Part shown: in pieces, positions 24,537-56,680 of the stretch
Layout: every line of letters begins with the position of its first letter
Numbering within the stretch: position 1 is the stretch's first letter
IMG/VR virus record: IMGVR_UViG_3300023174_000130
Coordinates: 19,216 to 83,215 of that record
DNA from: a virus
Reading direction: 5' to 3' (one strand)
Length of the DNA stretch: 64,000 nt
Made by a program: the position numbers and the translations under genes
Notes under the pieces: model-generated
Database searches by the model: none
What the model was told of the DNA's origin: nothing
The model's input: the letters and a program-made list of their open reading frames with translations, nothing else

Positions 24537-25079
24537 TTAGCTATTGTAGTTGTCTTGAATTTTTAGATAATCAAAAGTAAGTGTTGCACTAAAACCAACG
24601 AAGCCAACTTCACCCATGTTAAGATTAATTTCACCAACAACTGATGGCCAGCATTTATACAAAGTAATTGTTTTTATAGGATTTCCGTTTAAATCCAATT
24701 GTTTTATTTGCCAAGTTGTTTGAAGAGTTTTATAGGAATAATCATTTCTAACAACTTTATGGGTATAATGGCCGTCCATTTGTTCCGACCAAGTATGTAA
24801 TGCTTTCCAAATATTTTTAGTATTATTATCGTCGTAAATACCTATAGCCCAAGTACTATAAATTCTATCACCAGCATATGTGACCATTCTTCCACGATAT
24901 GGAACAGAAATAGTATTAATTTGAGTAGCTGGCAATGATGCAGATACTATTTTAAATGCTGCATCATTTTTATCAATACTAATTCCATTTGGCCATTTTG
25001 GCATAACCACGAACCTATTGGCACGGGTTCCACCGTTAAAACCATCTTTAAAATTAATTATTGAATTTTTTGATGGCAT
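24537..25079 (-). CDS. tail tube protein (gp19-like, paralogue B)
   Basis: 180 residues. It shares with its neighbour GGTRANRFVVMPKWPNG, the YRGRMVTYAGDR strand, CWPSVVGEINLNMGEVGF and LTFDYLKIQDN. It is three bases from the next gene and follows gp18, so it is a tandem duplicate. Either it makes a second tube segment or cap, or the two co-assemble. Confidence 0.8.
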   Translation of the reverse strand: MPSKNSIINFKDGFNGGTRANRFVVMPKWPNGISIDKNDAAFKIVSASLPATQINTISVPYRGRMVTYAGDRIYSTWAIGIYDDNNTKNIWKALHTWSEQMDGHYTHKVVRNDYSYKTLQTTWQIKQLDLNGNPIKTITLYKCWPSVVGEINLNMGEVGFVGFSATLTFDYLKIQDNYNS

Positions 25080-26404
25080 TATTGTGTTAGGGTTATATTA
25101 AGTATAAAGCTATCAATACTGAGAATTGGTTTAATTATTACTTGAATCGTCAATGATGAAGAGTTATCTGTATTGTTAGATGCATCACATATAATTTGAG
25201 TTTTAGTATTGTCAATATATGGAGTAAATGGATCTATTGCATTATCTATTTCAGAAGTAATTTGTGCGCGGGTAGATGCATTATTTACATCAAATAGGTA
25301 TTTCAATGCAATGGCATTAATAGCTTCTGACAAAGCTGAACGAAGTCTTGATGGGCCTATTCTTTCATCAGATGATACTACACCAGAAGAATTTGCTGTG
25401 GCTCCAACAACATCCGATCCTAAAAATTTAGGATTAAAGTTTACAAAGAAATTGACTCTATTATTTCTTAAAACTGTTTTTAAATTATCAAACCAATCAA
25501 TCGAATTTGATACATTTCCATTTAATACAGTTGCTCTATCTATACCGGCTACAGTTAAATACTGTTCATTTCGATTTAAAGCTCTGGTAAAGAATCCACC
25601 TACATCAGACACTGCTGGCAAAGTATATGTAATCTTACTGGTGCTTAATAATGAAGTTGTATCTAAATCTGTTACAGTTTTTAAACCACAAACATTAAAT
25701 ATTCTATTAGCAACTTGTGTTCCAGTGACGTAAGCAGATGACCCGAATAAAGTTGCGTAGTTTGCCATAGTATAACCAGCTCCAGTAATTCCAGAACTAT
25801 CGGCAATGCTTGGGAATATACCTACAGTATATGGTTGGTCTATTAACCATTGACATAATGTGGTTCCCGCTTGTTGGCCAATTACTATATCAAAATAATT
25901 TTGCGAATCTATAATATATTGATCCAATCCAGCTGCAGATCCAGACAAAATCAAAGAACCACCATAAGCCATATAATTTATGGCAAACAACATATCTTTA
26001 CCAGCAGCCAATGGTGTTAGACGAACAGAGTTGTTTTCTACTCCAGCAGTTTGAAAAAATCCATATGTTCCACCTGCGCCGGGATCTGATACCAGACATG
26101 CTGTGACTCCACCCAATGAATTTAAATCTCCAATAAAATCTTGTGGTGTGGTATAAACAATATATTTGTCTAAAGTAGTGCCTTTAGCGGGAACGGTAGA
26201 TCCTGTAGATCCCCATGTTCTGGAACGAGAGTATATTAACCATCCAAATAAGCCACCAGGATCATTGCCTGCAGCGCCTGAAAGACCATTAAATGTCAAA
26301 CCGCTGTTATATGTATTTCCGGTAATCATACCGGCTAACAGGGTATTGGTGGTACTTTCTGTCGAATATTGGTTAGAGCTTATAAAGGAGCTGAGTGATG
26401 GCAT
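25079..26404 (-). CDS. gp18: tail sheath protein
   Basis: 441 residues, shorter than T4 gp18 (659), so the protruding domains of the T4 sheath are probably missing. The C-terminus contains RIGPSRLRSALSEAINAIAL, the sheath-closing core, and the middle has NVNFFVNFNPKFLG-like strands. It is flanked by gp17 upstream and the tube gene downstream. A late promoter (GCTAAATA) and AAAGGAAAT ribosome site precede it. Confidence 0.88.
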   Translation of the reverse strand: MPSLSSFISSNQYSTESTTNTLLAGMITGNTYNSGLTFNGLSGAAGNDPGGLFGWLIYSRSRTWGSTGSTVPAKGTTLDKYIVYTTPQDFIGDLNSLGGVTACLVSDPGAGGTYGFFQTAGVENNSVRLTPLAAGKDMLFAINYMAYGGSLILSGSAAGLDQYIIDSQNYFDIVIGQQAGTTLCQWLIDQPYTVGIFPSIADSSGITGAGYTMANYATLFGSSAYVTGTQVANRIFNVCGLKTVTDLDTTSLLSTSKITYTLPAVSDVGGFFTRALNRNEQYLTVAGIDRATVLNGNVSNSIDWFDNLKTVLRNNRVNFFVNFNPKFLGSDVVGATANSSGVVSSDERIGPSRLRSALSEAINAIALKYLFDVNNASTRAQITSEIDNAIDPFTPYIDNTKTQIICDASNNTDNSSSLTIQVIIKPILSIDSFILNITLTQ

Positions 26405-41398: not shown

Positions 41399-42382
41399 AT
41401 GCCATTTCCATCACCTTATTATGGATCAGATTACGTAGTAATTAATAGCGGAGGCACCTTTGCCGTAGGTGCAGACCCTGTTACCAATATTTCTGGTGGC
41501 TATTCATACTATGTACAGTACTATAAATTGGGATTCGGTGCTACTGGTGCGTTTACTCCAGTTACTTCCAGCAATCCTTTCCCTGTAACCGTTGCAACTG
41601 GCCTAACAGCAACAATTTCTGGCTTTTCTGGCCCAATATCAATTGTAGGAACTGTAGGTGGACAGGCTGTTACAGTAGGGGGAAGCGTAGTTGTATCAGG
41701 TCTAACAGCATCTCCTGTATATGTACAAACTGCACCTAGCTGCAGAGTAGAAGTTACTGGTGGAAGATATTTAAGTAGACTTAATGACAGTGTTTCTGTT
41801 TTTGGACCAAGTGGAAGTACTTGGCTATATGCAAATCTAGTAGATAGTACGGGAACTCCAATTGGAAGTTCTGGTAACCCAATGTACACCAACATAATTG
41901 GTGCAACTATTAGCGTTACGATTAACCCCACCGTTGGTGTGACCAATCAATCTGGAACTGCCCTTAGAGTACAAGGGTTTACTGGTGGCACACCACTTTC
42001 AACAACTGTAGGCAATACTGTTGGAATTAATGACACCGCAATTCTTGCATCTATGGCAGGAATAAGCAATCAACTTGGAACTTTAAATACAAATCTTGGA
42101 ACTCTTGGAATTAGCAGACCAACCACGTTTATCAGTGGTAGATTAACCGCTACAACTGGTGTAACTGGATTATATCCTGCTGGATATACGACAATTTCTG
42201 GTATTAATATTAAAGCATCGTCATCCAATACCGATCTTGTTTATATAAACTCTGACGGTGTAGCTTCAATTGGATATGAATTGGATCCAGGACAAAATAT
42301 ATTCTTAAATGTTCAAAATCTTAGAACCATTTATTTAAGAGCAAAAACTTCTTCGCAAGTAGTTTCTTACATGGCTAGCTAA
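41399..42382 (+). CDS. virion structural protein with beta-rich repeats
   Basis: 327 residues, Gly/Thr/Val-rich and with almost no charged residues. Repeated valine-rich segments (TVATGLTATISGFSGPISI, VGTVGGQAVTVGGSVVVSGL) suggest a beta-helix or immunoglobulin-like adhesin. The C-terminus (VYINSDGVASIGYELDPGQN) is compact, and resembles C-terminal domains of small phage decoration or fibre proteins. First gene of a plus-strand late transcript. Not recognised. Confidence 0.55.
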   Translation: MPFPSPYYGSDYVVINSGGTFAVGADPVTNISGGYSYYVQYYKLGFGATGAFTPVTSSNPFPVTVATGLTATISGFSGPISIVGTVGGQAVTVGGSVVVSGLTASPVYVQTAPSCRVEVTGGRYLSRLNDSVSVFGPSGSTWLYANLVDSTGTPIGSSGNPMYTNIIGATISVTINPTVGVTNQSGTALRVQGFTGGTPLSTTVGNTVGINDTAILASMAGISNQLGTLNTNLGTLGISRPTTFISGRLTATTGVTGLYPAGYTTISGINIKASSSNTDLVYINSDGVASIGYELDPGQNIFLNVQNLRTIYLRAKTSSQVVSYMAS

Positions 42383-42384
42383 AA

Positions 42385-43707
42385 ATGAGTAGTGCAGCTT
42401 TAACAGTAGTAAAATCAACACAATCATTTACATTAGAATTTATTGGTTCTACTGCTGATCCTTGCTTGACCAAGGGTTATTTGGAGTCATCGCCACAAGT
42501 TCAACTAGTTGGAAACAGTTTTTTCTTTAATTATTCGCAAAGTAAAAACGTCAATGATTTTAAGTTTTTAAAATTATTTTTTGATAAACTTGGAGTCGGA
42601 TCTACTTTTTCTTTTAGTTCTGGTAAATATACAAATATTACTACTGGATCCGTATTATCTTGGGATGGTCAATTTACACTACAAGGAAAAACTGGGGCGT
42701 ATAACCAGTATCTATATTTTAGTGGATTATCTGGAACATCTGGGATTTCTGCTGGCATATATGATAGAAATCTTTTTACAACTCCAATTCAATTTACTGC
42801 TGTAACGGGTGGCACTGCTGCATTGCTAGTAAACAAATCACCGGATATGGATCCTTTGAATTTTACTTATCTGGGAATATACGGAAGTGATTATAGTTTT
42901 GAAGAATATTTGCAAGTTAACAACAGTACATTAAATCAAAAAAGAATACTTATTAAAAATGTATTGAAACTAAATGATGGGACAGAAGTAATTTATATTG
43001 ATCCAACTGTCAGTATAACAAATGAAAACTTATATTTTCAACAGTCAATGGTTGACATTTATATGAGAGGAGTTTTGACTCCCGATGACATCAACTATGA
43101 TCAAACATTAAATGGAATTCTTAGAATTTCAAATACATATCCGGGTGTTTATACTCAACTACTTGAAAATCAAAATAAACAACAATTTTTATTAAGACAA
43201 CTTTTAAATCCAGTATATCCAGTAAATTATTATTGGTATCCAAATACTAAACTTGTTAATTTTAGTTCTGCTGACGTTGAAGCATATACGAATGCTAGCT
43301 ATGTTTTTGCTTCAATATTTCAACTTGTCTATGATACCAATTATATTCCAGTATTTTCTACTTCTGCAATTTTAGATGTTCCCACATTAATTGGTCAAGA
43401 AGTTTATAATACAATATTGATTGATAGCAATGACACTTCTGTTTTAAACTTTAGTCCTGGGAATAATAACACCACTAAAAACTTTAAAATAGATTTATCA
43501 GATTCTAGAAATATAGATTTAGATATTTCTGCTTATAGCGACTATGCATGTTCAGTTCCATTGACTAGAAATTTTAGAATCAATGGAACACCCGGTAGAG
43601 AAGGAGCGGCCTTCATTTATTATTCAGACCGCCCCGATTCTCTACAGAGCATTTATTTAAAACTTGAACGAGAAACAACTTTAATCTTGAGTGTGGTAAT
43701 TTCTTAA
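42385..43707 (+). CDS. virion structural protein, unknown
   Basis: 440 residues. Aromatic-rich with TFSFSSGKYTNITTGSVLSW, QYLYFSGLSGTSG and PGREGAAFIYYSDRPDSLQS. It follows the previous gene by 2 bases, so it is co-transcribed. A tail fibre or virion decoration role is inferred; no catalytic motif is seen. Confidence 0.5.
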   Translation: MSSAALTVVKSTQSFTLEFIGSTADPCLTKGYLESSPQVQLVGNSFFFNYSQSKNVNDFKFLKLFFDKLGVGSTFSFSSGKYTNITTGSVLSWDGQFTLQGKTGAYNQYLYFSGLSGTSGISAGIYDRNLFTTPIQFTAVTGGTAALLVNKSPDMDPLNFTYLGIYGSDYSFEEYLQVNNSTLNQKRILIKNVLKLNDGTEVIYIDPTVSITNENLYFQQSMVDIYMRGVLTPDDINYDQTLNGILRISNTYPGVYTQLLENQNKQQFLLRQLLNPVYPVNYYWYPNTKLVNFSSADVEAYTNASYVFASIFQLVYDTNYIPVFSTSAILDVPTLIGQEVYNTILIDSNDTSVLNFSPGNNNTTKNFKIDLSDSRNIDLDISAYSDYACSVPLTRNFRINGTPGREGAAFIYYSDRPDSLQSIYLKLERETTLILSVVIS

Positions 43708-43985
43708 ATTTCAACCCAAGTATAACTGTTTCCATCATAAAAATAAGAATAATACCTACCATTGGTATTCCATATTTGACCAACAACTGGATTTAATGGT
43801 GGATTATCGGAAGTATATATTTCTGATACTCCTTTATAATTCCAAGCATCTACTTGTTGTATTGGAGACAAGTATGTTGATTTTGCTGCTTCATATAGTT
43901 TTCCTTGAAACAGTATTGAATCACCTTTACTATAAACAAAAGCGGTTCCGTTGGAACTCTTAGATTTATAGTTTCCTTTAAACAT
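43704..43985 (-). CDS. small virion protein (possible carbohydrate-binding fold)
   Basis: 93 residues. FVYSKGDSILFQGKLYEAAK resembles the strand-turn-strand of chitin-binding/CBM5-12-type modules, and NPVVGQIWNTNGRYYSYFYD with a final WVEI is common at the ends of phage fibre proteins. It converges with the plus-strand transcript, overlapping by four bases. Confidence 0.5.
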   Translation of the reverse strand: MFKGNYKSKSSNGTAFVYSKGDSILFQGKLYEAAKSTYLSPIQQVDAWNYKGVSEIYTSDNPPLNPVVGQIWNTNGRYYSYFYDGNSYTWVEI

Positions 43986-43986
43986 T

Positions 43987-44289
43987 TTAGATTAATGTCT
44001 CGGATGATTCTTCGGTAGGAGCTTCTTGAACTTGAACATCGGGATTTACCCACTTTAGATAATATCCTGCCATGTCATCAGCCACATCTACAGCAAAAAT
44101 AATAGCCGAATCAGGAATAACTGTTCCTTCGCTAATTTTTGTGTATGGCAACCAATTTGCCAATCCTATCTTATATTCCTTTAAATGAACTAACATAGCT
44201 GGATCTTCCACATACCAGCCACCCTCTACTTTTTTTCCTTTAGAAATAACTTCTTCGCCAGACAACACTTTAAAATATACCAATTCCAT
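43987..44289 (-). CDS. Lsm/Sm-like small protein (paralogue 2)
   Basis: 100 residues. YFKVLSGEEVISKGKKVEGG, DPAMLVHLKEYKIGLANWLP and PDSAIIFAVDVADDM match the protein at 54146-54457 throughout, and the start of 16634-17302. Its early-type promoter (44311-44338) gives a 21-base leader with AAAGG. Confidence 0.65.
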   Translation of the reverse strand: MELVYFKVLSGEEVISKGKKVEGGWYVEDPAMLVHLKEYKIGLANWLPYTKISEGTVIPDSAIIFAVDVADDMAGYYLKWVNPDVQVQEAPTEESSETLI

Positions 44290-44310: not shown

Positions 44311-44338
44311 ATTATACGTGTTTTACACGCTTTGCAAA
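44311..44338 (-). promoter_or_regulatory. early-type promoter of the 43987 Lsm-like gene
   Basis: Minus strand: TTTGCA, 16 bases, TATAAT, then 21 bases including AAAGG to the ATG. It is partly inside the 3' end of the 44312-44947 gene. Confidence 0.55.
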
Positions 44339-44947
44339 CTGTTTAGCTGCACCACATCCACATCCACCTGGTTTTTTATTATCGGGAGATGTGTTTGGAT
44401 TCATAGTCGGAGCTCCGCTGTATTGATTGTATGTTTCAAATCTTTGATTAATCATATTTAATTTAACATTTTCAATTATTTCTTCTTCTGCAGATTTGGT
44501 TTTTTCTTCATCTATTTTTTGATTTTTAAATTCTTTAATTTTAGAAAGATCTATTTCATTCCTATAACTCAATTTATCAAATTTAAAAAATATTACTGGA
44601 ACTTTAAACCATTTATTAAATTTAATTCGTCTTGCTTCGCAGCCACAGTTTCCATTTGTTAATTTAATTATTAATTTTTTAATTCCAGTTTTTTTAGTAA
44701 TAAAGTCTATTATATCACCAATATGTAAACTTACAAAATTTAATTTAATTTTAAATACTTTTTGAAATTGAAAATTTATATCTATTACTTTATAATAAAT
44801 ATAATTTTTTTCTTCTTTTATATCATCATTATATCTATCAGCATCAAATGTAGTTTCTAATCCTACACGAGGATCAATACTTAAAGTATTATTACCATAT
44901 GCTGAGTGCATTGTTTTAGATACAAAAACATTTTCGTTATAATTCAT
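44312..44947 (-). CDS. unknown protein with CGC motifs
   Basis: 211 residues. LTNGNCGCEARRIKFNKWF near the middle resembles a CGCxxR motif seen in small phage proteins, and the C-terminus has PGGCGCGAAKQFAKRVK. The rest is lysine-rich. It is between the giant protein and an Lsm-like gene and has a late box upstream. Not recognised. Confidence 0.5.
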   Translation of the reverse strand: MNYNENVFVSKTMHSAYGNNTLSIDPRVGLETTFDADRYNDDIKEEKNYIYYKVIDINFQFQKVFKIKLNFVSLHIGDIIDFITKKTGIKKLIIKLTNGNCGCEARRIKFNKWFKVPVIFFKFDKLSYRNEIDLSKIKEFKNQKIDEEKTKSAEEEIIENVKLNMINQRFETYNQYSGAPTMNPNTSPDNKKPGGCGCGAAKQFAKRVKHV

Positions 44948-44984: not shown

Positions 44985-47900
44985 TTATTCTTCTATAACA
45001 AAACATTGCATATTGGCTGTTTTTCCAAATGGCTGTGGTACTCCTTCTTCAGAAGGTATACATACTGCTTCAAATGGTCCAGATTCAGTTTGTCCATCCA
45101 TACCTATAAAACATAGTGCTGTACCAACAGTAAGTCCACCACAATTTAAACTACTATAATCCGAATAAACATCGTCGTATATTCTCCAAAGTCTGGGTAT
45201 ACCACTAATTGGTACAGGTTCTTCGGCTTCCGTTCCCATTCCGGGCAATGGTTTTGTTGATGGATAGTAGTTGATAGGATCATCTAAAGAATATTCTTTG
45301 TCTACTCGGTATATTAAATTTGGATTTAATCTACAACAGAATTTACATCCCGGACAAGAACGGTCATTGTTTGGGCAGCTTCCTGTTGGATATAAATCTC
45401 TAGGACAATCACAGCAACCACCTCCACTTGATGCAAAAGATGATCTATCTCCACACCAACAATTGCATGCAAAAGTCATTCCAGGTGGAAGAGGTCCAGT
45501 ATATCCTGTGAATGAAACTAGAGGACCCAACCAATCATCTGTCTTAGCAGCATCCATGTATAAAATTTTATTAAAGGATCCATTAATACTGTCATTCATA
45601 AAACCATTAATAGATATTGGAGGTGGTGCATCAGTACAGAATTTTCTGCCATAAGAATGTGCCCATCCTCCAGGACCAACTAAATTTTCTACAGAGGATT
45701 GACATACACTTGCTCCATTCCCTGATCCACAAGGATTTTCAGTTCTACAAGGATCATCATTGGGAACAACTTTGCAAATATCACATGCTGTGCCTACTAT
45801 AGATTGTGATAAATGTTTTTTTAGTGTATAAAGAGTTCTTCCACCAACATAAACATATGGATATGACATAGTCGATTCTACATTATATGCTTTTGGAATT
45901 GAATTTTTTGGTGTCATTAACTCATTAATAAGTTCTGATGATGTCATACCATAAACGCCACTGGGAACAGGATAGTTATTTCCGACATAATGATTTCTAT
46001 ATGGTATTGGTGCTGTTTGAACTTCATATAAAGAAGTTTCAGCATTGTAACCATAATAATAATTACGTTTAGCATAAAAGAATCCAGTAATATTTGTTTT
46101 AACTACACCACAACATTGTCCTAGTCCAGTATCCATATTATCACTAGATACTTTTCCAAATCCTTTTGCTGATTGTATAAAATAATCTTTATTTGAATTG
46201 AAACCTATTCGGCCATTAACATTACCAAAACATCTTTCGCCAAAATATGGTCCACCACTACAATCATAAGCTTGTTTTTCTCGTCTACTTGGAGGACAGC
46301 CACATACTGCATCATTACACTTGCAAAACGGTGTTCCGCGACCGGGTGTAAATCCATAGCCACTAAATGCAAATGCAGAAGGACTTCCGTCACCAATCCA
46401 GCATATATCTCCACCAAAACATGCTCCAAATTCATTATTTAAATTTCGATTAGCAGTGGCAATTGAACTATTTGGATCACCACCATTGCCATTTTCAGTA
46501 TTTGGCCTTAAACCATCTCTACCATCCCTATCACGCAACATACCACATCCTTTACCGGGATATGGTTCATACGTGTGAAGAGGAGTAGCTTGCTGTATAC
46601 GTCTCCAATCTGGTCGCATCCAATAATATTGAGGATGCCCAGAAAATGATCTATTTAAATCATGAGTCTTTGTATAGTAGACACTGGTCAGATCTACATT
46701 ACCAACAATATTTTGAGATATTTCGCTTTGTATAGAATTACAAGGCATACCAAAAAACCATTTTGAAAAATCCCATCTTCCAGGAACTGCTCTAAAAAAT
46801 GCTTGAGTTCTAAAATAGATAGGTAAATCACCAAAATTTTTAAATTGCAATTTGGAATGATCTACATCAAACGATGAAGCTTTCCATGTCTGTGCTTGTG
46901 TACCTGATGTAAAGATTGTTGACACACTTCCAGATGTAAAAGATAAATCACTATAATCATTTTTACCAATTCCAGCAGTAAGTCCTCTATTTGCATCTGG
47001 TCTTGGAAATATTTCAATTCTTGTCTTTGAAGAATTCTTTCTTCTATAAACAACTCCAATGGCATTTGGGCCAGCAGTAATTTTATCTATTTTATCATAA
47101 TTTTTTGCATAAAACGCAGTAAGACCAGAATAAGTAACACCAGATACTGCTGTTACCATTTCAGAATTTCCCCATACAACTAATCTATGCTTGTCTCCAG
47201 CTTTTCTTGCCATAATACTGTAATCTGGACCACCATCTATTGCAAATATACTAGCAGAACTGAATATTGTTTTGTCTGCTGTTGTATATACTTTATATTT
47301 TGAATGATCCCAATTTTCACCACAATTTTCTTGGGTTGCGCAAATATCACTACATCCAGTTACACCACCAGCAGGCCCAAGCTTCCATTCATCTGGAAAT
47401 ATTTCACTATGAGGTAAAAATACTGGTATAGGATTATTATTTGTAAAACTATTTTCTTCATTTAATGGTTCTCCATCTTCATCTACTTTTACATATGATC
47501 CCCATATTTTTAAATTATTGTCATCAGATAATGCAATACTATGATAATGACCTGCTGCAACTTGCGTGTATACGGGAACATCTGGCTCAATTGCTTTTAT
47601 GCAACTATATCCCCATTCTGCGCCACAAGAATTTTTACTAGCTCCTAATAAATTTCCTTGATCGATGCTTGGTTGAAATAATTGGCATCTAATATCACAA
47701 GGAATAGCATTTTCTCCTTCACTCCAAGATACGCTACCTACTGGTTGATTACTATTTACACAATGAGTGATATTCCACCATTCTTTATTTTCTGGTAAAG
47801 ACAGAGTAGAATTTCTTTGTATTAAAGTATTCCATTCATCTTCTGTAAAATATCCTGGTTTTGGAAGATGATAATAATAAAATAATGCTTGATATCCATT

Positions 47901-50900
47901 TGGAGCAGCTAGTTGTTGCGTACCCCTTTTTTCAGCAAGCTCTCTTTTTCCTGATATTGTTGGATATCCATACGATGATTGATTATATGTATTATCACTA
48001 GTTGGAGTTGCAAACAAAGAACCACCAGATGTTATTGCAATAGTATGTTTAACTCCACATGCTACATCTTTCCATATAAAAAATTTATTATTAAGATCGT
48101 ATCTAAATTGATTTACACCAGGATAACAATTTGCTTGAATATAATCAGAAATGTAACGAGTATCATCATAAAAAATTCCATAATCGATATCAGCATCATC
48201 TCCTCCACCATTTCCCTTTCCCCACGCTTTCAAAACATACATTTCATTGCTGTTTGACTCAGCACAACTAAATGAACCAGATGGATATATAAAAAATGGT
48301 GTACCAACAATTTCCCAACCAGAATTTGAAAATTTCTTTCGTTTGTAATTAGTTTCATTGCATCCAGGATTTACGTGCCATAAATTTGGACCAGAGACAA
48401 CACCTTCTGTATATTCCACCAAAGCAACAGCAAATTTTCCTTTTGAAGATATTTTTTCTACTCTTCCATCTGGAAGAGTAAAATTTTGATTTTCTTCTTC
48501 ATATATTATTCCAAGTTCGGGTGCTACCGATAAATTACATGGAACTGCTCCAACATCCGTATCAAAATAATTTCCATCGCATATTGGTTGAATATCACCA
48601 GTAGGACATGGAGGTTCAACATCTACTTGTATATTTGCATATTCTGGTGAGCAACCTACATCTGCAGGATCTCCACTGGGTGGTACTGATCCTCGTCCAA
48701 ATGCTCTGACCTTTCCATTTGTTGTTACGGCAAACCAAGTTTGTTGACCACCAAAGAGAGAGGTATATGCTAGAAGATCGTCGGGATCTTGATTAGATTT
48801 AACATTTAAAACACTTTCTTTGGTATCACATATACCTGCTCCAGTGCATCCCCATGTTGTCAAACCTGCTCCAATAGGTGTTGGCCATAATTTGGCTCTA
48901 CGCGGACCAGCAAACATTGGACCTGGAATACCACTAACAAGATTTTCTTGCCTTGGATTGATTAAATTATTTTTCATCAATTTAGCAGTAACATATGGTT
49001 TTAATGCTGCCCAAATGGTAAAATCATCTTTATCAGAAAAATTGGCTTCTGGATTGTCTGCTAAGATTTTTCCTTCCAACCAATTAATCATTTCATAATA
49101 TCCAGTTTTCTTACCTAAGAAAGCTTCGACATCTGCATCAAGAAATACTGGATCAGGGCGCCCATCTGCTGGTGGGTGTTCTGGATCTATTGGTTCTAAT
49201 TCTACACTATCTAATAATTCTATTAATTCTGTGGCTATATCTCCTGCATGATCTTTAACACTGATAACATTGTATCGTATCATTTCTTTTAACCATGCTG
49301 TTACATATTCGTAATCATCTACATCATTTGATTCTACTACAGGTTCATTATAAATGGTCTCTCCTGGATCTGTAATTTTATTATAAAAATAAAGATAAAA
49401 TTTTTCTATAAAATCTTCTCCACTAAAGAAATTTCCATTTACAACAACATTTTTAGCTATAGAAATTTTTTCCATAGCATGTAAATCAGAATGAAACAAA
49501 GGAACAACTGAAGATCCATACATTACTCTGCGAGGGAAACTACGCATAGCCTGATATCTAAATGCTTCTCTAGGATCATATATAAAATTATTTTTTGTCC
49601 ATCTGCCAGCATATGGTCTTTCATATGGAGTTATTAACATATTACAATGATTCATGGGTATCGGTGGAGCCGGTGTAAACAGTGCTTTACTATGATACGC
49701 CCAGGATTCAAAATGATGATCCATACCAATCAAACCAACCATTTTATGGAATAAATTACTTTTTTTATTAAAAGTCTTTTTAAACGATGCATTATTCCAA
49801 CCATATTTACCTGGTGAGATTATAGTAGGTGAATAAAATGGACCTAATACTTCTTGTTCTTTTGCTACTGTTGATCCATAATGAAAAACATCTTTGGCAG
49901 CAGGATATAATCTTTGAGATATTCTACTCAAATAAGGAGATATTCCTCTTGCAAAACATTGTTTGTTATAATTTGGATTGAACAAAGGAGTATTTGCATT
50001 CTCACCTTGTGTTCCAATATTACAATATGATCCTAAAGTTGGAGAAGATTTTCCAAAACCACTTGCTTTTGGCCAAGCTGCTCTAGCATTTCTTCTAGCA
50101 TCTAAACCACCATAACATGCAGAAGTTGTTGGATTTGATGTATTTGCACAAGAACAACAACCAGCTTCGCTGACAAACATTGGTGGAGCAAATGGCTCTT
50201 GTGAAGGAATATAGCCACCTTGTTGTACTCTTTGAGAAACATTAAAAGATTTTCTAGCAGTATCTACTAAACCACCACTTAAATGTGGATATCTCATACA
50301 TTGACATGGATATGTTGTTCTATCTCTGCATTTACATGCTATGCCAGTTGGACAATTACCAAACGCATAATGGGCCATGCAACTAAGACAAGGAGTTCCA
50401 TCACTACCATCTGCTTCATATCCACTACCAGATAATAAAAAGTCACATGTCTTTAATCCAGAAAATAGTGATTGAGTTTTTTTCCATCCCGATCCTTGTG
50501 CAATTTTTGTTTGATAATTAAAAATATATTCTGGTGGATACCAAACCATATGACATCCAGTATATCGATATATAAAATATAATGGAGCGGCGCCCGGTGA
50601 TCCTCCATTAACAGGACAAACTCCGCATTGCCAAGGTTTACCTTGTAAACCATCCTCATTAATAGGACCATTTTCGCCAGGTCCAATCTCTGGAATAATA
50701 AAAGAATTTACAGAACTTATTAATCCTGATCCACCGGGTGTTTGATTGGGTGCAGGAATTGTTGGTGGATATTTTGTTTCTGGACCAAAGAAATTATTTA
50801 ATTCGGCACCACCGTTTGTTAATAATCTAGATTGATCTAAAGTAGTTAGTAATGGATCAAGTTCTGCAACTAAACCATTTCCATTTACTAATATATTTCC

Positions 50901-51821
50901 ATTATATAGATCCGGATTGTCAAATGTTGTACCTTTTGCCGAATCATAATTTTTAGTATAAATTGGATGCGCAAATAATTGATTTATATTATTGTGTTGA
51001 TTTACTGTATCACCATAATAACCACTACAATATACTTCGCATTCCTTTTGACACGATGCACAAAAATTAATATTTGCATCTTTACAATCTACTGAATTAT
51101 TTCTAATACAGTCTAGATCATAACCATTATCTATTATACACTGTTTGCAAACAGGGTAAAGATTATCTAATTTATCTTTAAATCTTTTATTTGCACTTGG
51201 TACAACTGTTTCAACTGCGTTAGAACTAATATTTTTTTTAATCGTAGTTTGTTTAGTCTTTTGCGCTATAAGTTCATCAGTAGTTTTAATATTATATGCT
51301 GTACCATAATTTATTGGAGTTTTTGTTCCACGGCTAACTAACTTTTTAAACATCTGTGAAACATTAAAAGTAACATTGTCTGAATGAGTATTAGTAGTTT
51401 GTTTGAAAGTAGGACAATTAGGATCTATAGTAGGATCACACTTACCAGTACATATACTACAGCATTCTCTACATCCTCCACCAAATACTACAGATTCTGT
51501 AGCAGCGGGTACCTCAGGAGCTCCGTCAAGTGTACAATTATCGTCTTTACACTTATATACGGGTGGACATTCACTGCATTGACTTGGTGCGCATTGCGTA
51601 CAACAAGCTGGGCAAGGTTCTACACCTGGTACATTTGGATTTTGATTATCTAATTCCAAACTGCTTGTTCTAGATACTGGTCTATTAATTTTTAAAGAAA
51701 TTAAATCACCAGGTGAAACCGGTACGGCGCTATCTAATAAATTTCCAAAAATTGTAACAAATTGATTTGTTAAGCAATAATCATCAACCGCAACATCACA
51801 GCAACATAATTTTTTAGGCAT
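44985..51821 (-). CDS. giant cysteine-rich virion/adhesin protein with RCC1-like repeats
   Basis: 2278 residues, by far the longest gene here. By my count it has about 95 cysteines, in clusters: the N-terminus (LCCCDVAVDDYC, CPACCTQCAPSQCSEC), a GGGCRECCSICTGKCD block, and the C-terminus (GGGCCDCPRDLYP, CPGCKFCCRLN). Several RCC1-type repeats lie in the middle (CGVKHTIAITSGGSL, VAAGHYHSIALSDDNNLKIW, DKHRLVVWGNSEMVTAVSGV), suggesting a beta-propeller segment. There is no signal peptide or membrane segment. It has a late box and GGTGAGACC. Probably a host-recognition or tail-fibre-like protein; the function is inferred. Confidence 0.6.
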   Translation of the reverse strand: MPKKLCCCDVAVDDYCLTNQFVTIFGNLLDSAVPVSPGDLISLKINRPVSRTSSLELDNQNPNVPGVEPCPACCTQCAPSQCSECPPVYKCKDDNCTLDGAPEVPAATESVVFGGGCRECCSICTGKCDPTIDPNCPTFKQTTNTHSDNVTFNVSQMFKKLVSRGTKTPINYGTAYNIKTTDELIAQKTKQTTIKKNISSNAVETVVPSANKRFKDKLDNLYPVCKQCIIDNGYDLDCIRNNSVDCKDANINFCASCQKECEVYCSGYYGDTVNQHNNINQLFAHPIYTKNYDSAKGTTFDNPDLYNGNILVNGNGLVAELDPLLTTLDQSRLLTNGGAELNNFFGPETKYPPTIPAPNQTPGGSGLISSVNSFIIPEIGPGENGPINEDGLQGKPWQCGVCPVNGGSPGAAPLYFIYRYTGCHMVWYPPEYIFNYQTKIAQGSGWKKTQSLFSGLKTCDFLLSGSGYEADGSDGTPCLSCMAHYAFGNCPTGIACKCRDRTTYPCQCMRYPHLSGGLVDTARKSFNVSQRVQQGGYIPSQEPFAPPMFVSEAGCCSCANTSNPTTSACYGGLDARRNARAAWPKASGFGKSSPTLGSYCNIGTQGENANTPLFNPNYNKQCFARGISPYLSRISQRLYPAAKDVFHYGSTVAKEQEVLGPFYSPTIISPGKYGWNNASFKKTFNKKSNLFHKMVGLIGMDHHFESWAYHSKALFTPAPPIPMNHCNMLITPYERPYAGRWTKNNFIYDPREAFRYQAMRSFPRRVMYGSSVVPLFHSDLHAMEKISIAKNVVVNGNFFSGEDFIEKFYLYFYNKITDPGETIYNEPVVESNDVDDYEYVTAWLKEMIRYNVISVKDHAGDIATELIELLDSVELEPIDPEHPPADGRPDPVFLDADVEAFLGKKTGYYEMINWLEGKILADNPEANFSDKDDFTIWAALKPYVTAKLMKNNLINPRQENLVSGIPGPMFAGPRRAKLWPTPIGAGLTTWGCTGAGICDTKESVLNVKSNQDPDDLLAYTSLFGGQQTWFAVTTNGKVRAFGRGSVPPSGDPADVGCSPEYANIQVDVEPPCPTGDIQPICDGNYFDTDVGAVPCNLSVAPELGIIYEEENQNFTLPDGRVEKISSKGKFAVALVEYTEGVVSGPNLWHVNPGCNETNYKRKKFSNSGWEIVGTPFFIYPSGSFSCAESNSNEMYVLKAWGKGNGGGDDADIDYGIFYDDTRYISDYIQANCYPGVNQFRYDLNNKFFIWKDVACGVKHTIAITSGGSLFATPTSDNTYNQSSYGYPTISGKRELAEKRGTQQLAAPNGYQALFYYYHLPKPGYFTEDEWNTLIQRNSTLSLPENKEWWNITHCVNSNQPVGSVSWSEGENAIPCDIRCQLFQPSIDQGNLLGASKNSCGAEWGYSCIKAIEPDVPVYTQVAAGHYHSIALSDDNNLKIWGSYVKVDEDGEPLNEENSFTNNNPIPVFLPHSEIFPDEWKLGPAGGVTGCSDICATQENCGENWDHSKYKVYTTADKTIFSSASIFAIDGGPDYSIMARKAGDKHRLVVWGNSEMVTAVSGVTYSGLTAFYAKNYDKIDKITAGPNAIGVVYRRKNSSKTRIEIFPRPDANRGLTAGIGKNDYSDLSFTSGSVSTIFTSGTQAQTWKASSFDVDHSKLQFKNFGDLPIYFRTQAFFRAVPGRWDFSKWFFGMPCNSIQSEISQNIVGNVDLTSVYYTKTHDLNRSFSGHPQYYWMRPDWRRIQQATPLHTYEPYPGKGCGMLRDRDGRDGLRPNTENGNGGDPNSSIATANRNLNNEFGACFGGDICWIGDGSPSAFAFSGYGFTPGRGTPFCKCNDAVCGCPPSRREKQAYDCSGGPYFGERCFGNVNGRIGFNSNKDYFIQSAKGFGKVSSDNMDTGLGQCCGVVKTNITGFFYAKRNYYYGYNAETSLYEVQTAPIPYRNHYVGNNYPVPSGVYGMTSSELINELMTPKNSIPKAYNVESTMSYPYVYVGGRTLYTLKKHLSQSIVGTACDICKVVPNDDPCRTENPCGSGNGASVCQSSVENLVGPGGWAHSYGRKFCTDAPPPISINGFMNDSINGSFNKILYMDAAKTDDWLGPLVSFTGYTGPLPPGMTFACNCWCGDRSSFASSGGGCCDCPRDLYPTGSCPNNDRSCPGCKFCCRLNPNLIYRVDKEYSLDDPINYYPSTKPLPGMGTEAEEPVPISGIPRLWRIYDDVYSDYSSLNCGGLTVGTALCFIGMDGQTESGPFEAVCIPSEEGVPQPFGKTANMQCFVIEE

Positions 51822-51838
51822 AATAAGGTCTCACCATG

Positions 51839-51846
51839 TATTTATA
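51839..51846 (-). promoter_or_regulatory. late promoter of the giant gene
   Basis: TATAAATA on the minus strand, 17 bases before the ATG. Confidence 0.6.
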
Positions 51847-51905: not shown

Positions 51906-52142
51906 TTAGCGAGAACGATTACGGACTACGCGGTAGTACGAACGACCATTCTTTGTCTCACGAACTACATTATAGTTCATGTCAAAACGATCAAAAGCCT
52001 CACGGAGGTCATGCATCGTTGCGCGCATGTTAGTAACGCGGAAACGCTTGCGAGCCTCGCCAGCGGTCAGAGTAGCACCGCCACGCATAAAATCAAACAC
52101 TCTCTGAATCTTGGTCGGACGATCAACAGTAGTAATTTCCAT
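51906..52142 (-). CDS. winged-helix DNA-binding protein
   Basis: 78 residues starting MEITTVDRPTKIQRVFDFM. ATLTAGEARKRFRVTNMRAT, MHDLREAFDRFDMNYNVVRE and YYRVVRNRSR fit the phage HTH_39-like winged helix. AAGAAAGGAAAG precedes the ATG chosen, and an early-type promoter lies upstream, so it is probably an early regulator. Confidence 0.65.
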   Translation of the reverse strand: MEITTVDRPTKIQRVFDFMRGGATLTAGEARKRFRVTNMRATMHDLREAFDRFDMNYNVVRETKNGRSYYRVVRNRSR

Positions 52143-52236: not shown

Positions 52237-52836
52237 ATGGGACAGAGCAATCGTCAGTTCGTAAAATTTGTGAGACAGCATCTTGCAGAATACGGTATGA
52301 AACTTATTATTGGCCGTGGAAAACATGTAAATGTAGATGGTTTCCGTTGTTCTGGCTATTTTGATGAATCTGGAAAAGCCATTGCTGTAGCCCGTAAAGC
52401 AAATGAATTTATGCAAGTTTTGGTACATGAATATTGCCATTTTTTACAATATATCAATAACTCTCAAATTTATAATAAATCTTATGAGGCTTCTACTATT
52501 GTAGATGCTTGGTTAAAAGGCAAAAATTATCCTATTAAAAAGGTAAAAAGAGCATTTTTTATTGTACGTGCAATGGAAAGAGATTGTGAAAGACGGGCAA
52601 TGAAGATTATTAAAGACTTTAATCTAGCAATTAATAGCAAAATGTACGCAAAAAGAGCACATGTGTACATTTACAGCCACTTTTTGATGGAAAAAACTCG
52701 TAAATTTCACTCTTACAAGCGAAATCCATACTATAGCAAGTATGTTTTGAAGATTATGCCATCAAATATGGCTGTTCTAAGCCATAAAACGATCCCACCG
52801 AAGGTTTATTCGGTCTTAGAATCGTTTACAATCTGA
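52237..52836 (+). CDS. HExxH zinc metallopeptidase-like protein
   Basis: 199 residues. VLVHEYCHFLQYI carries HExxH at residues 64-68, and RAMERDCERRAMKI lies where a third zinc ligand and active-site region are found in minimal metallopeptidases. The rest is basic and aromatic. A good ribosome site and late box precede it. Its substrate is unknown. It overlaps the end of the opposite gene by 31 bases. Confidence 0.62.
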   Translation: MGQSNRQFVKFVRQHLAEYGMKLIIGRGKHVNVDGFRCSGYFDESGKAIAVARKANEFMQVLVHEYCHFLQYINNSQIYNKSYEASTIVDAWLKGKNYPIKKVKRAFFIVRAMERDCERRAMKIIKDFNLAINSKMYAKRAHVYIYSHFLMEKTRKFHSYKRNPYYSKYVLKIMPSNMAVLSHKTIPPKVYSVLESFTI

Positions 52837-54457: not shown

Positions 54458-54478
54458 ATGTTTCCTTTACAGAGTTTT

Positions 54479-54506
54479 ATTATAGCAGGCGTTTTAACAA
54501 TAGCAA
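54479..54506 (-). promoter_or_regulatory. early-type promoter of the 54146 Lsm-like gene
   Basis: Minus strand: TTGCTA, 16 bases, TATAAT, then 21 bases including AAAGGAAAC to the ATG. Confidence 0.65.
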
Positions 54507-54517
54507 GTAACAATAAT

Positions 54518-55150
54518 ATGAAATCATTTCAACAATTTTTAATTGAAGGCTCTGAACAAATGCAATGTGATATTAATGGTATTTGCAAAGTAATAAAAGA
54601 ATATGAATCTGCAGGTAATGAACAAAAAATTCTTTCTATCTATAAAGATAGCAAAGGTTTATCAACAATTGGTCATGGACATTTAGTTACTCCAAAATCT
54701 TCAAAGATATTTTCTGAATTAAATATCAGTCCTGATATTTTAAGTGGCAAAGGAAAACTTACACCAGAACAAGCAGATAAATTACTTGAAAGAGATGTAA
54801 ATGATCGCTTACCTCAAGTTAAAAAATTAGTTCCTAAATTTGGTGAATATTCTCCAGAACTACAAGCCCAACTTACCTCTGAACATTTTAGAGGTATGTT
54901 AGGAAAATCTCCTAGCGCTGTTAAAAAATTAAGCGCAGGAGACTTTTCTGGTGCAGCAACAGAATATTTAAATGCTAAAGATTATAGAGAATCTGTAAGA
55001 GACAAAACTGGTATTGCACCAAGAATGCAAAAACTTGCAGATGCAATCAAAACGGAACCAGAACGTCAGAAGAAACGTCAGCAATCTTCTCTTCAAACCA
55101 ATCAGGCACCTCAGTCGCCTTCCACTTCGCAAACGCTGCCTTCTCGTTAA
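54518..55150 (+). CDS. T4-type lysozyme with a capsid-targeting propeptide
   Basis: 210 residues. Residues 1-10 are MKSFQQFLIE, followed by Gly, matching T4 internal-protein propeptides (as I recall, MKTYQEFIAE) and the protein at 58080. The body is a GH24 lysozyme: Glu35, Asp44 and Thr50 have the E-8-D-5-T spacing of T4 lysozyme (NEQKILSIYKDSKGLSTIGH). A Gln/Ser-rich tail follows. I took the ATG at 54518 because the upstream one (54458) only overlaps the divergent gene's start and its sequence is unlike the family. No signal peptide is seen and no promoter is visible. It may be an internal lysozyme; the plain endolysin alternative cannot be excluded. Confidence 0.75.
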   Translation: MKSFQQFLIEGSEQMQCDINGICKVIKEYESAGNEQKILSIYKDSKGLSTIGHGHLVTPKSSKIFSELNISPDILSGKGKLTPEQADKLLERDVNDRLPQVKKLVPKFGEYSPELQAQLTSEHFRGMLGKSPSAVKKLSAGDFSGAATEYLNAKDYRESVRDKTGIAPRMQKLADAIKTEPERQKKRQQSSLQTNQAPQSPSTSQTLPSR

Positions 55151-55610
55151 TATAATAACTGCGATAAGCAACTATTGCATTTTCATTCTTATATTGTTCT
55201 GGCATTGCCTGAACAAAAGTAGTCAGCTTACCTTTGGGCAAATTAACAGGGCAGTCATACAATTCATTCAACAACATAGATTCCATTGAATGAACTTTGC
55301 CGTACCGCCGAGTGTATTCCTTGCACAGAGCATATGCATGTTTCCAAAGCCAAAGATAATTTTCTGAAGTAGTACGGGTCCAAATATTGCATGGATGATT
55401 AATCATTGCAGCCTTGCAAATATTCTTCTTTGTGCAAACATGAGTGGTGTATCTACGTTTGCCAGTGTTAACTTCTAAGGGATCACCATCCAAAACATGA
55501 TGGGCAGTTGAAAGCAACTGGCAAGATTCAAGAATCATTTTTACAACGTGCTTATCGCACATCATACGAGCAGAAGTAGCGGCATCATTGTCCAAAACAA
55601 AAATGTTCAT
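55047..55610 (-). CDS. conserved phage protein, unknown
   Basis: 187 residues starting MNIFVLDNDAATSARMMCDK. HVVKMILESCQLLSTAHHVL, NHPCNIWTRTTSENYLWLWK and FVQAMPEQYKNENAIVAYRS form a pattern I have seen in several phage proteins of unknown function. It overlaps the GMP reductase stop as ATGA, so it is in that operon. Its 3' end overlaps the opposite lysozyme gene by 104 bases. Confidence 0.55.
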   Translation of the reverse strand: MNIFVLDNDAATSARMMCDKHVVKMILESCQLLSTAHHVLDGDPLEVNTGKRRYTTHVCTKKNICKAAMINHPCNIWTRTTSENYLWLWKHAYALCKEYTRRYGKVHSMESMLLNELYDCPVNLPKGKLTTFVQAMPEQYKNENAIVAYRSYYINEKAAFAKWKATEVPDWFEEKIADVSSDVLVPF

Positions 55611-56644
55611 ATTTCGTGATTCTCAAAAATATTGTTTATAGTACGATTGACCTTAACCATTGTACCACGCGAATACAAGTCAGGCAAGTTAAAAGCACCA
55701 ACATACGAACAAGCAGAGCGCAATCCACCAAGAATTTCTTGAACGGTGTGATGTACAGATCCACGATAAGGTACTTCCACAGTGCGGCCCTCGGAAGCAC
55801 GGTAATCCTTAAGTCCGCCATTGTATTTTTCATTTGCGGTTTTGCTGGACATACCATAATGAAGCATAGTGAGTGATGCGTTATTATTGGAGTGACGAAT
55901 TTCTCCACCACACTCGTCATGTCCTGCAAATGCACCTCCAGCCATAACAAATGCAGTCCCAGCCACAAAAGACTTAGCAAAATCGCCGGGATGTACAATC
56001 CCTCCATCAGATACGATCCCAATACCTAACGCTGTTGCGGTTTCCACACACTCTATGACCGCTGAGAGTTGGGGATATCCCACTCCGGCTACTCTGCGTG
56101 TCAGGCACATCGACCCCGACCCGATTCCCACTTTTACTAGATCTGCTCCAGCATCGGACAACGCCACGACCCCCTCTGGGGTCACGATATTCCCTGCAAT
56201 CAATATTGACTTCGGCCATTTTTGTCTCACTTTCTTTACGAAGTTATGAAATTCTGTCATGTAACCATTTGCAACATCAACACAAACAAAAGTTGGATCA
56301 TTGATTGTTGCATTATCCACAAACAATTTACTCTCTGGGTCTAACCCAAGAGTCAATGAAACGTATTTTTCTTTATCTGGATAACTGGTGGCAAAAGTAA
56401 CATAATATTCACCACCTTTCTTCAGACAGGTAATCATCTTGTAATCTGACAATACAAGAGCCATTTCGTGTGTTCCCACCGTGGACATGTTTGCCGCCAT
56501 GATCGGCACACCAGTCCAATAAGATCCGCAATTAAAAGTAGTACCAACTTCAAGATTGACATCTTTGCGAGACTTAACATCCGAAAGTCTTGGTACAATG
56601 AGTGCGTCTGAATAATCTAGTTTTGGTTCGTAGTTTACAATCAT
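55607..56644 (-). CDS. guaC: GMP reductase (GMP to IMP)
   Basis: 345 residues, the length of bacterial GuaC. VKVGIGSGSMCLTRRVAGVG contains the catalytic cysteine, followed by YPQLSAVIECVETATALGIG, SDGGIVHPGDFAKSFVAGTA, MLHYGMSSKTA, YRASEGRTVEVPYRGSVHHT and ILGGLRSACSYVGAFNL. These favour GMP reductase over IMP dehydrogenase, because no CBS-domain insertion is present. The ATG at 56644 lies eight bases after an early promoter. It converts GMP to IMP with NADPH, shifting purine pools. Confidence 0.88.
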   Translation of the reverse strand: MIVNYEPKLDYSDALIVPRLSDVKSRKDVNLEVGTTFNCGSYWTGVPIMAANMSTVGTHEMALVLSDYKMITCLKKGGEYYVTFATSYPDKEKYVSLTLGLDPESKLFVDNATINDPTFVCVDVANGYMTEFHNFVKKVRQKWPKSILIAGNIVTPEGVVALSDAGADLVKVGIGSGSMCLTRRVAGVGYPQLSAVIECVETATALGIGIVSDGGIVHPGDFAKSFVAGTAFVMAGGAFAGHDECGGEIRHSNNNASLTMLHYGMSSKTANEKYNGGLKDYRASEGRTVEVPYRGSVHHTVQEILGGLRSACSYVGAFNLPDLYSRGTMVKVNRTINNIFENHEI

Positions 56645-56652
56645 GACCGACA

Positions 56653-56680
56653 ATAATAACACATAGAAACTACTGGTCAA
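56653..56680 (-). promoter_or_regulatory. early-type promoter of guaC
   Basis: Minus strand: TTGACC, 16 bases, TATTAT, eight bases, ATG. Confidence 0.65.

Follow-up and report, generated by a model that had tools for sequence, protein, structure and literature searches.

The virion of Agrobacterium phage Milano contains a disulfide network that must be reduced before contraction (PMC10811340), the virion of Agrobacterium phage 7-7-1 likewise contains a disulfide network (PMC12796354), and in cyanophage Pam3 disulfides fix the fibres to the baseplate (as cited in PMC11821841). Proteins of the RCC1 type have been detected by mass spectrometry in the virions of phages W70 and GAP32 (PMC11370258, PMC5259590), and the propeller of phiKZ gp131 is positioned at the baseplate periphery (PMC4901313). 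The subject of this analysis is a giant cysteine-rich open reading frame (ORF) with RCC1-like repeats, located in a 64,000-nucleotide stretch of viral DNA (the window; bases 19216-83215 of the 83,215-base IMG/VR record IMGVR_UViG_3300023174_000130). The evidence leans towards its product being a structural part of the virion that is made late, most likely an appendage at the periphery of the tail or baseplate, in a T4-like phage, with cysteines (Cys) that form disulfides after release. Such a protein would share with Milano, 7-7-1 and Pam3 the Cys-rich virion parts, the contractile tail and the covalent stapling of the particle, its own place in the virion being read from the surrounding genes.

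The cytoplasm in which phage proteins fold is reducing, and their usual Cys content is about 1%. The giant gene is the largest single gene in the window, an uninterrupted ORF on the minus strand with an ATG start, for a protein of about 250 kDa. The original prediction, which did not give the strand, counted about 95 Cys in 2278 residues and called this very unusual; both figures are exact, and the content of 4.17% compares with 1.21% in the remaining genes predicted in the window (212 Cys among 17,523 residues; binomial P for at least 95, 3.6e-24). Clusters had been placed at both ends. The ends are indeed rich (13.1% in residues 1-130 and 7.3% in 2061-2278), but clusters are also internal, at residues 222-268, 395-630 (7.2%) and 1643-2060 (4.1%), and residues 631-955 hold a single Cys. 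Against shuffles of the same protein, in which each spacing is expected 3.9 times, CC occurs 8 times, CxC 9 times and CxxC 14 times, the last being the strongest over-representation among the spacings and a count reached in 0 of 2000 shuffles. In agreement with the claim that a signal peptide is lacking, the protein has no hydrophobic stretch of the length that a transmembrane helix or signal anchor requires (highest Kyte-Doolittle mean over 19 residues, 1.24). A Pfam search across the entire protein found no enzyme domain, no Pfam zinc-binding domain matched the giant or the family members scanned, and neither Pfam nor PHROGs gave a match apart from the RCC1 part. Weak hits to dynein light chain (HMMER, E value about 0.9) and to Pfam ATP1G1 (E 0.08) were treated as chance.

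Relatives were reached through records sharing the gp23 gene, followed by alignment-based searches. The records sharing gp23 yielded one full-length relative at 66% identity and four at 30-35%; an alignment of these first relatives then retrieved 38 loci among IMG/VR contigs, and a search with the N-terminal half retrieved an overlapping set of 40. Complete copies have about 1800-2490 amino acids (aa) and about 3.0-4.3% Cys, with 55-96 Cys per family member. The comparison with the nearest relative identifies the giant as a real gene, because at 66% amino acid identity the nonsynonymous divergence (dN) is 0.25, the synonymous divergence (dS) is 0.69 and 89 of 100 Cys positions are common to both. 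Two copies (L117:3005-9642 and L136:2378-4920) are split into two or more frames; the first lies in a close kin of the intact L116, hence possibly through sequencing errors. Outside this family, tblastn searches of 50,697 phage records, queried with the giant itself, with two relatives and with three neighbours, gave nothing significant. No relative of the giant was found in two scans of prokaryote genome contigs, in viral contigs scanned with its single sequence, or in profile searches of phages Melnitz, S-SM2, HTVC008M and P-RSM6. By these comparisons the giant is a member of a new family without a cultured member, within a known kind of protein.

The family alignment compared twenty distinct members, most of which share 26-42% identity with the giant, and the Cys, for whose clusters a search in relatives of the same size had been suggested, are strongly conserved across them. 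Among well-aligned Cys columns, 20 of 46 are invariant (43%, against which Trp reaches 37% and Gly 22%), making Cys the most conserved residue. Within the Cys block at residues 399-622 of the N-domain, nine to eleven are invariant or near-invariant (423, 459, 481, 506, 508, 555, 558, 600 and 622 being invariant), and the second part of that domain is almost devoid of Cys. The post-propeller domain contributes invariant Cys 1694, 1801, 1833, 1840, 1903 and 2031. Co-variation was examined with a test of paired changes, for which the tree was built without the Cys columns and only columns with at least three changes were scored. Ten of 703 Cys column pairs co-change perfectly, seven of them inside the N-terminal module, whose Cys are gained or lost as a unit, and three elsewhere. 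For other residues the perfect pairs number 0 to 7, mostly from much larger sets (Gly, 7 of 15,051); Trp gives 1 in only 66, a set too small for judgement. Perfect pairs thus occur much more often for Cys than for most residues. Perfectly matched gain and loss, with at least three changes on the tree, is seen for the pair aligned after residues 578 and 595 and for Cys 726 and 2237, which span 1500 residues from the N-domain to the C-terminal part. In addition, Cys 992 and 998 are absent together in four members. Since disulfides predict loss in twos, the paired gain and loss favours them over metal, suggestively rather than as proof, given a sample of 20 sequences whose variable regions cannot be aligned with certainty. 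The question of metal or disulfides, left undecided by the original prediction, is thereby narrowed towards the latter, the choice between them still being inferred.

The RCC1-like part can be described with more structural detail. Pfam RCC1_2 matches the giant with E 1.4e-11 (44.3 bits against a curated cut-off of 22) and WD40_RLD with E 4e-9, and RCC1-like models match in six of six family members scanned. Pfam finds two repeats, and all seven blades are visible in an AlphaFold2 model built from 23 family sequences, in which the blades mostly reach a predicted local distance difference test score (pLDDT) of 70-93, although the long insertions are poor (mean 55). The best solved match in a VIA comparison is HERC2 RCC1-like domain 2 (7q40; Z 25.2, root-mean-square deviation (rmsd) 3.1, 299 residues aligned, 21% identity), followed by RPGR, BLIP-II, RCC1 and UVR8 at Z 21-25; a Foldseek search agrees. 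The earlier suggestion of a propeller is thus confirmed as a model, a closed seven-bladed RCC1 fold having been obtained where a failure of the repeats to fold in this way would have spoken against it. HERC2 domain 2 belongs to a cellular ubiquitin ligase, and the common fold implies no common function; to our knowledge, there is no reason to expect Ran guanine nucleotide exchange activity or chromatin binding in a phage. The C-terminal propeller of gp131 of the myophage phiKZ (4gbf) is also seven-bladed, but its likeness (Z 15.8, rmsd 5.5 Å, 12% identity) is weaker than that of the cellular RCC1 matches (Z 20-25), and a Cys scaffold like that of the giant is not seen in gp131. The jumbo phages phAPEC6, GAP32 and W70 also have proteins with RCC1-type repeats, several of them identified in virions. 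Phage RCC1 proteins matched in BFVD mostly have about 360-860 aa, whereas here the propeller is an insert in a much larger Cys scaffold. Of the 18 propeller Cys, 17 are located outside the blade strands.

That the propeller might be the essential part was rejected on account of record G012, whose gp23 is 81% identical to that of this phage. At the same locus it encodes a cousin of 1275 aa (L158:8141-11968, plus strand) with 66 Cys (5.2%) and no propeller, in which the N-terminal module, N-domain and post-propeller domain are all recognised (domain E 0.0014, 2e-11, 3e-20 and 4e-8, each in a one-sequence search). Against the 50,697 phage records this cousin gave only one tblastn match, at E 0.5. 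Because it lacks the propeller and is yet richer in Cys, the Cys scaffold rather than the propeller defines the family, in which the propeller is, on this gene comparison, an optional domain. The N-terminal module varies in another way: in loci L103, L111, L119, L123 and L127 it is an upstream ORF of its own, of about 77-134 aa, and it is therefore a fusable and probably an interacting part. In record G017 the slot of the giant is empty, and a few genes away stands an MPKKACCC protein (L159:14158-17439, minus strand; 1091 aa, 52 Cys, glycine-rich), with no detectable homology to the giant past the first residues and with a CTAAATA box preceding its gene. A 201-aa protein with 12 Cys adjoins this gene. 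What is conserved throughout the lineage is a large, late protein rich in Cys, whose middle domain varies. The original prediction recognised the Cys richness; the family-wide conservation, the dispensable propeller and the separable N-terminal module all went unseen.

Late expression is suggested by promoter boxes. Late motifs published for T4 and cyanophages are TATAAATA and NATAAATA (PMC2984593), and the box seen here is close to them. In 19 of 19 loci, TATAAATA or CTAAATA lies within 60 nucleotides upstream of the first start codon of the operon, usually directly after a terminator-like hairpin, whereas 1.4% of random 60-mers hold one. The same boxes precede the gp23, gp22, sheath and gp48-like genes of this window, and the phage has a gene for a late sigma factor (phrog_234, E 2e-50). 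Across the entire window TATAAATA is not enriched (11 against 9.3 expected), so that only its position upstream of the giant is informative. In lineages with a split gene the box stands before the small Cys ORF, and the small ORF and the giant therefore appear to form one operon. The features of the giant and its surroundings are collected in Table 1.

Table 1. Features of the giant gene and its neighbourhood (window coordinates).
Feature	Position	Strand	Basis or remark
Giant Cys-rich ORF, 2278 aa, 95 Cys	44985..51821	-	ORF call, Cys count, family conservation
N-terminal Cys module (MPKKLCCC...C...CxxCC), residues 1-130	51432..51821	-	17 Cys in 130 aa; encoded by its own small ORF in several relatives
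Helical module, residues 222-268, 8 Cys in 47 residues	51018..51158	-	Predicted helices, pLDDT 56-77
Conserved N-domain, residues 395-955	48957..50639	-	Family alignment, Cys density
Seven-bladed RCC1-type propeller with long loop insertions (model), residues 984-1642	46896..48872	-	Pfam, AlphaFold2, VIA, Foldseek
Conserved post-propeller domain (YFxxxAFFxxxPGxWDxSKW...), residues 1643-2060	45642..46895	-	Alignment; present without propeller in L158
Variable Cys-rich tail, residues 2061-2278	44988..45641	-	Cys 2273 is invariant; Cys 726 and 2237 covary
TATAAATA T4-type late promoter box	51839..51846	-	Just downstream of terminator-like hairpin with T-rich tail
d211, 211 aa, CxC motifs	44312..44947	-	Next gene in operon
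sm100, 100 aa, phrog_527 (unknown function)	43987..44289	-	PHROG match
s93, 93 aa, YxxGDxVxYxGKLY pattern	43704..43985	-	Resembles small virion-surface/carbohydrate-binding module (read by eye)
f327 and f440, converging pair adjoining operon	41399..43707	+	f327 in relatives resembles repetitive fibre/decoration protein (read by eye)
Small helix-turn-helix (HTH)-like gene (MEITTVDRPTKIQRVFD... in relatives)	about 51906-52142	-	Directly upstream of giant
Lysozyme-like gene	54458-55150		Near giant

The gene order HTH, giant, d211, (sm100), (s93), f440/f327, gp32 and tail-tube-like/baseplate-hub/gp48-like is retained in nearly all sufficiently long loci, with d211 directly downstream of the giant in all relatives in which that sequence is present. 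Between relatives whose giants are only about 28% identical, the HTH-like gene keeps 74-100% identity. No match was found for d211 in the phage records, for s93 in Pfam or PHROGs, or for f327 and f440 in the databases. Beside the giant in most loci lies a divergently oriented gene of 199 aa (window 52237-52836, plus strand) with a weak match to the putative metallopeptidase family DUF6782, whose homologue in L158 has an HEYGH motif; an IMP dehydrogenase/GMP reductase-like gene (55607-56680, minus strand; Pfam E 1e-64) is near the giant in many relatives. T4-like genes found comprise those for the gp20 portal, gp23 major head protein, gp17 terminase, gp22 scaffold, gp18 sheath, baseplate proteins, gp32, gp46/gp47 and the late sigma factor. 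Portals of cultured cyanophages and the Methylophilales phage Melnitz reach no more than about 48% identity to the one here, and the lineage is therefore distant from cultured phages; judged from these genes, the phage is T4-like and Kyanoviridae-related, without cultured relatives. The sheath gene (25079-26404, minus strand) encodes only 441 aa compared with about 663 aa in Melnitz, and its match to known sheath families is confined to the C-terminal part.

In the mechanism we infer, the giant would be expressed late, folded in reduced form in the cytoplasm and incorporated late into the particle. Once particles reach the oxidising outside, the conserved Cys would pair with others in the same chain, across domains and perhaps in partner proteins, for which the N-terminal Cys module and the d211 protein are candidates. 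The Cys-rich N- and C-domains may thus form a covalently stapled scaffold, with the RCC1 propeller placed between them as an optional surface for binding or display, the result being a stapled appendage in which one giant bears the cross-links. A virion role is likely and had already been proposed: it is indirectly suggested by the late box, the fibre- and baseplate-like neighbours and the RCC1-type virion proteins known elsewhere (PMC11370258, PMC5259590). The more specific idea of a fibre fits less well, as the contig bases before the window (L101:2894-16260, minus strand) hold a row of four tail fibre genes with collagen repeats, of 890, 505, 1254 and 1788 aa and with 0-0.7% Cys. A number of points weigh against the proposed appendage. 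The giant is known from sequence; its tail location is suggested by gene neighbourhood, and late promoters drive some non-virion genes too. The AlphaFold2 model of residues 1-985, including the N-domain, is of low confidence (mean pLDDT 50) and fold searches with it returned no match, which is no demonstration of a new fold. Paired Cys could also be half-sites of metal centres, and CxxC is the most over-represented spacing. Finally, the Cys enrichment throughout the structural proteins of the Milano/Pam3 type is not found here, where capsid (0.83%), portal (0.19%), sheath (0.91%) and fibres are Cys-poor. The design therefore differs from Milano: Cys are spread over many ordinary structural proteins there (2.1%) and concentrated at 3-5% in one giant here, so that a single protein would bear the cross-links. 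The strong enrichment of the giant itself and its invariant Cys columns remain a likeness to that type.

Three other explanations were weighed. It is unlikely, though the least so of the three, that the Cys serve as ligands of structural metal (Zn or Fe-S) and form no disulfides in a multi-metal-site virion or non-virion protein folded in the cytoplasm: the reducing cytoplasm, the CxxC excess, the CxC motifs also borne by d211 and the 8-Cys block at 225-265, which across the family is retained entire or reduced as a group, all speak for metal, but most invariant Cys in 423-622 and 1694-2273 lie outside CxxC pairs, Cys outside the modules are lost in twos rather than fours, and a zinc-binding domain was not recognised by Pfam. 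Only slightly less credit is given to a late non-virion protein, for example an assembly factor or a protein with a role at the host envelope during lysis. The lysozyme-like and putative metallopeptidase genes nearby and the indirect nature of the virion evidence fit such a role, against which stand the lack of a signal peptide, transmembrane segment or enzyme domain and the presence of other phages' RCC1-type proteins in virions. Very improbable is an internal head protein organising DNA through the propeller; a DNA role has been proposed for the RCC1-like proteins of phAPEC6 and W70 (PMC7247149, PMC11370258), but the propeller is dispensable in L158, no sign of a chromatin function exists beyond the common fold, and the gene lies far from the head genes.

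The late, disulfide-bearing tail or baseplate appendage is thus preferred, with disulfides favoured over metal by the pattern of Cys loss. A bolder version, put forward as a speculation we would rather doubt than expect, makes the giant an undescribed class of phage virion organ. A single protein would then hold a redox-sensitive disulfide scaffold, in which the two Cys-rich halves flank an exchangeable display domain and the N-terminal Cys module can detach, and would clamp the contractile tail covalently or act as its redox trigger across a whole uncultured T4-like lineage. Given the usual Cys content of phage proteins and the reducing cytoplasm, the conservation of so many Cys in one giant implies that selection has favoured cross-links, covalent or through metal, in the completed particle. 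If the tail is indeed stapled by disulfides, the Milano/Pam3 principle would extend to T4-like phages in a different architecture, and redox control of infection would become testable through one protein.

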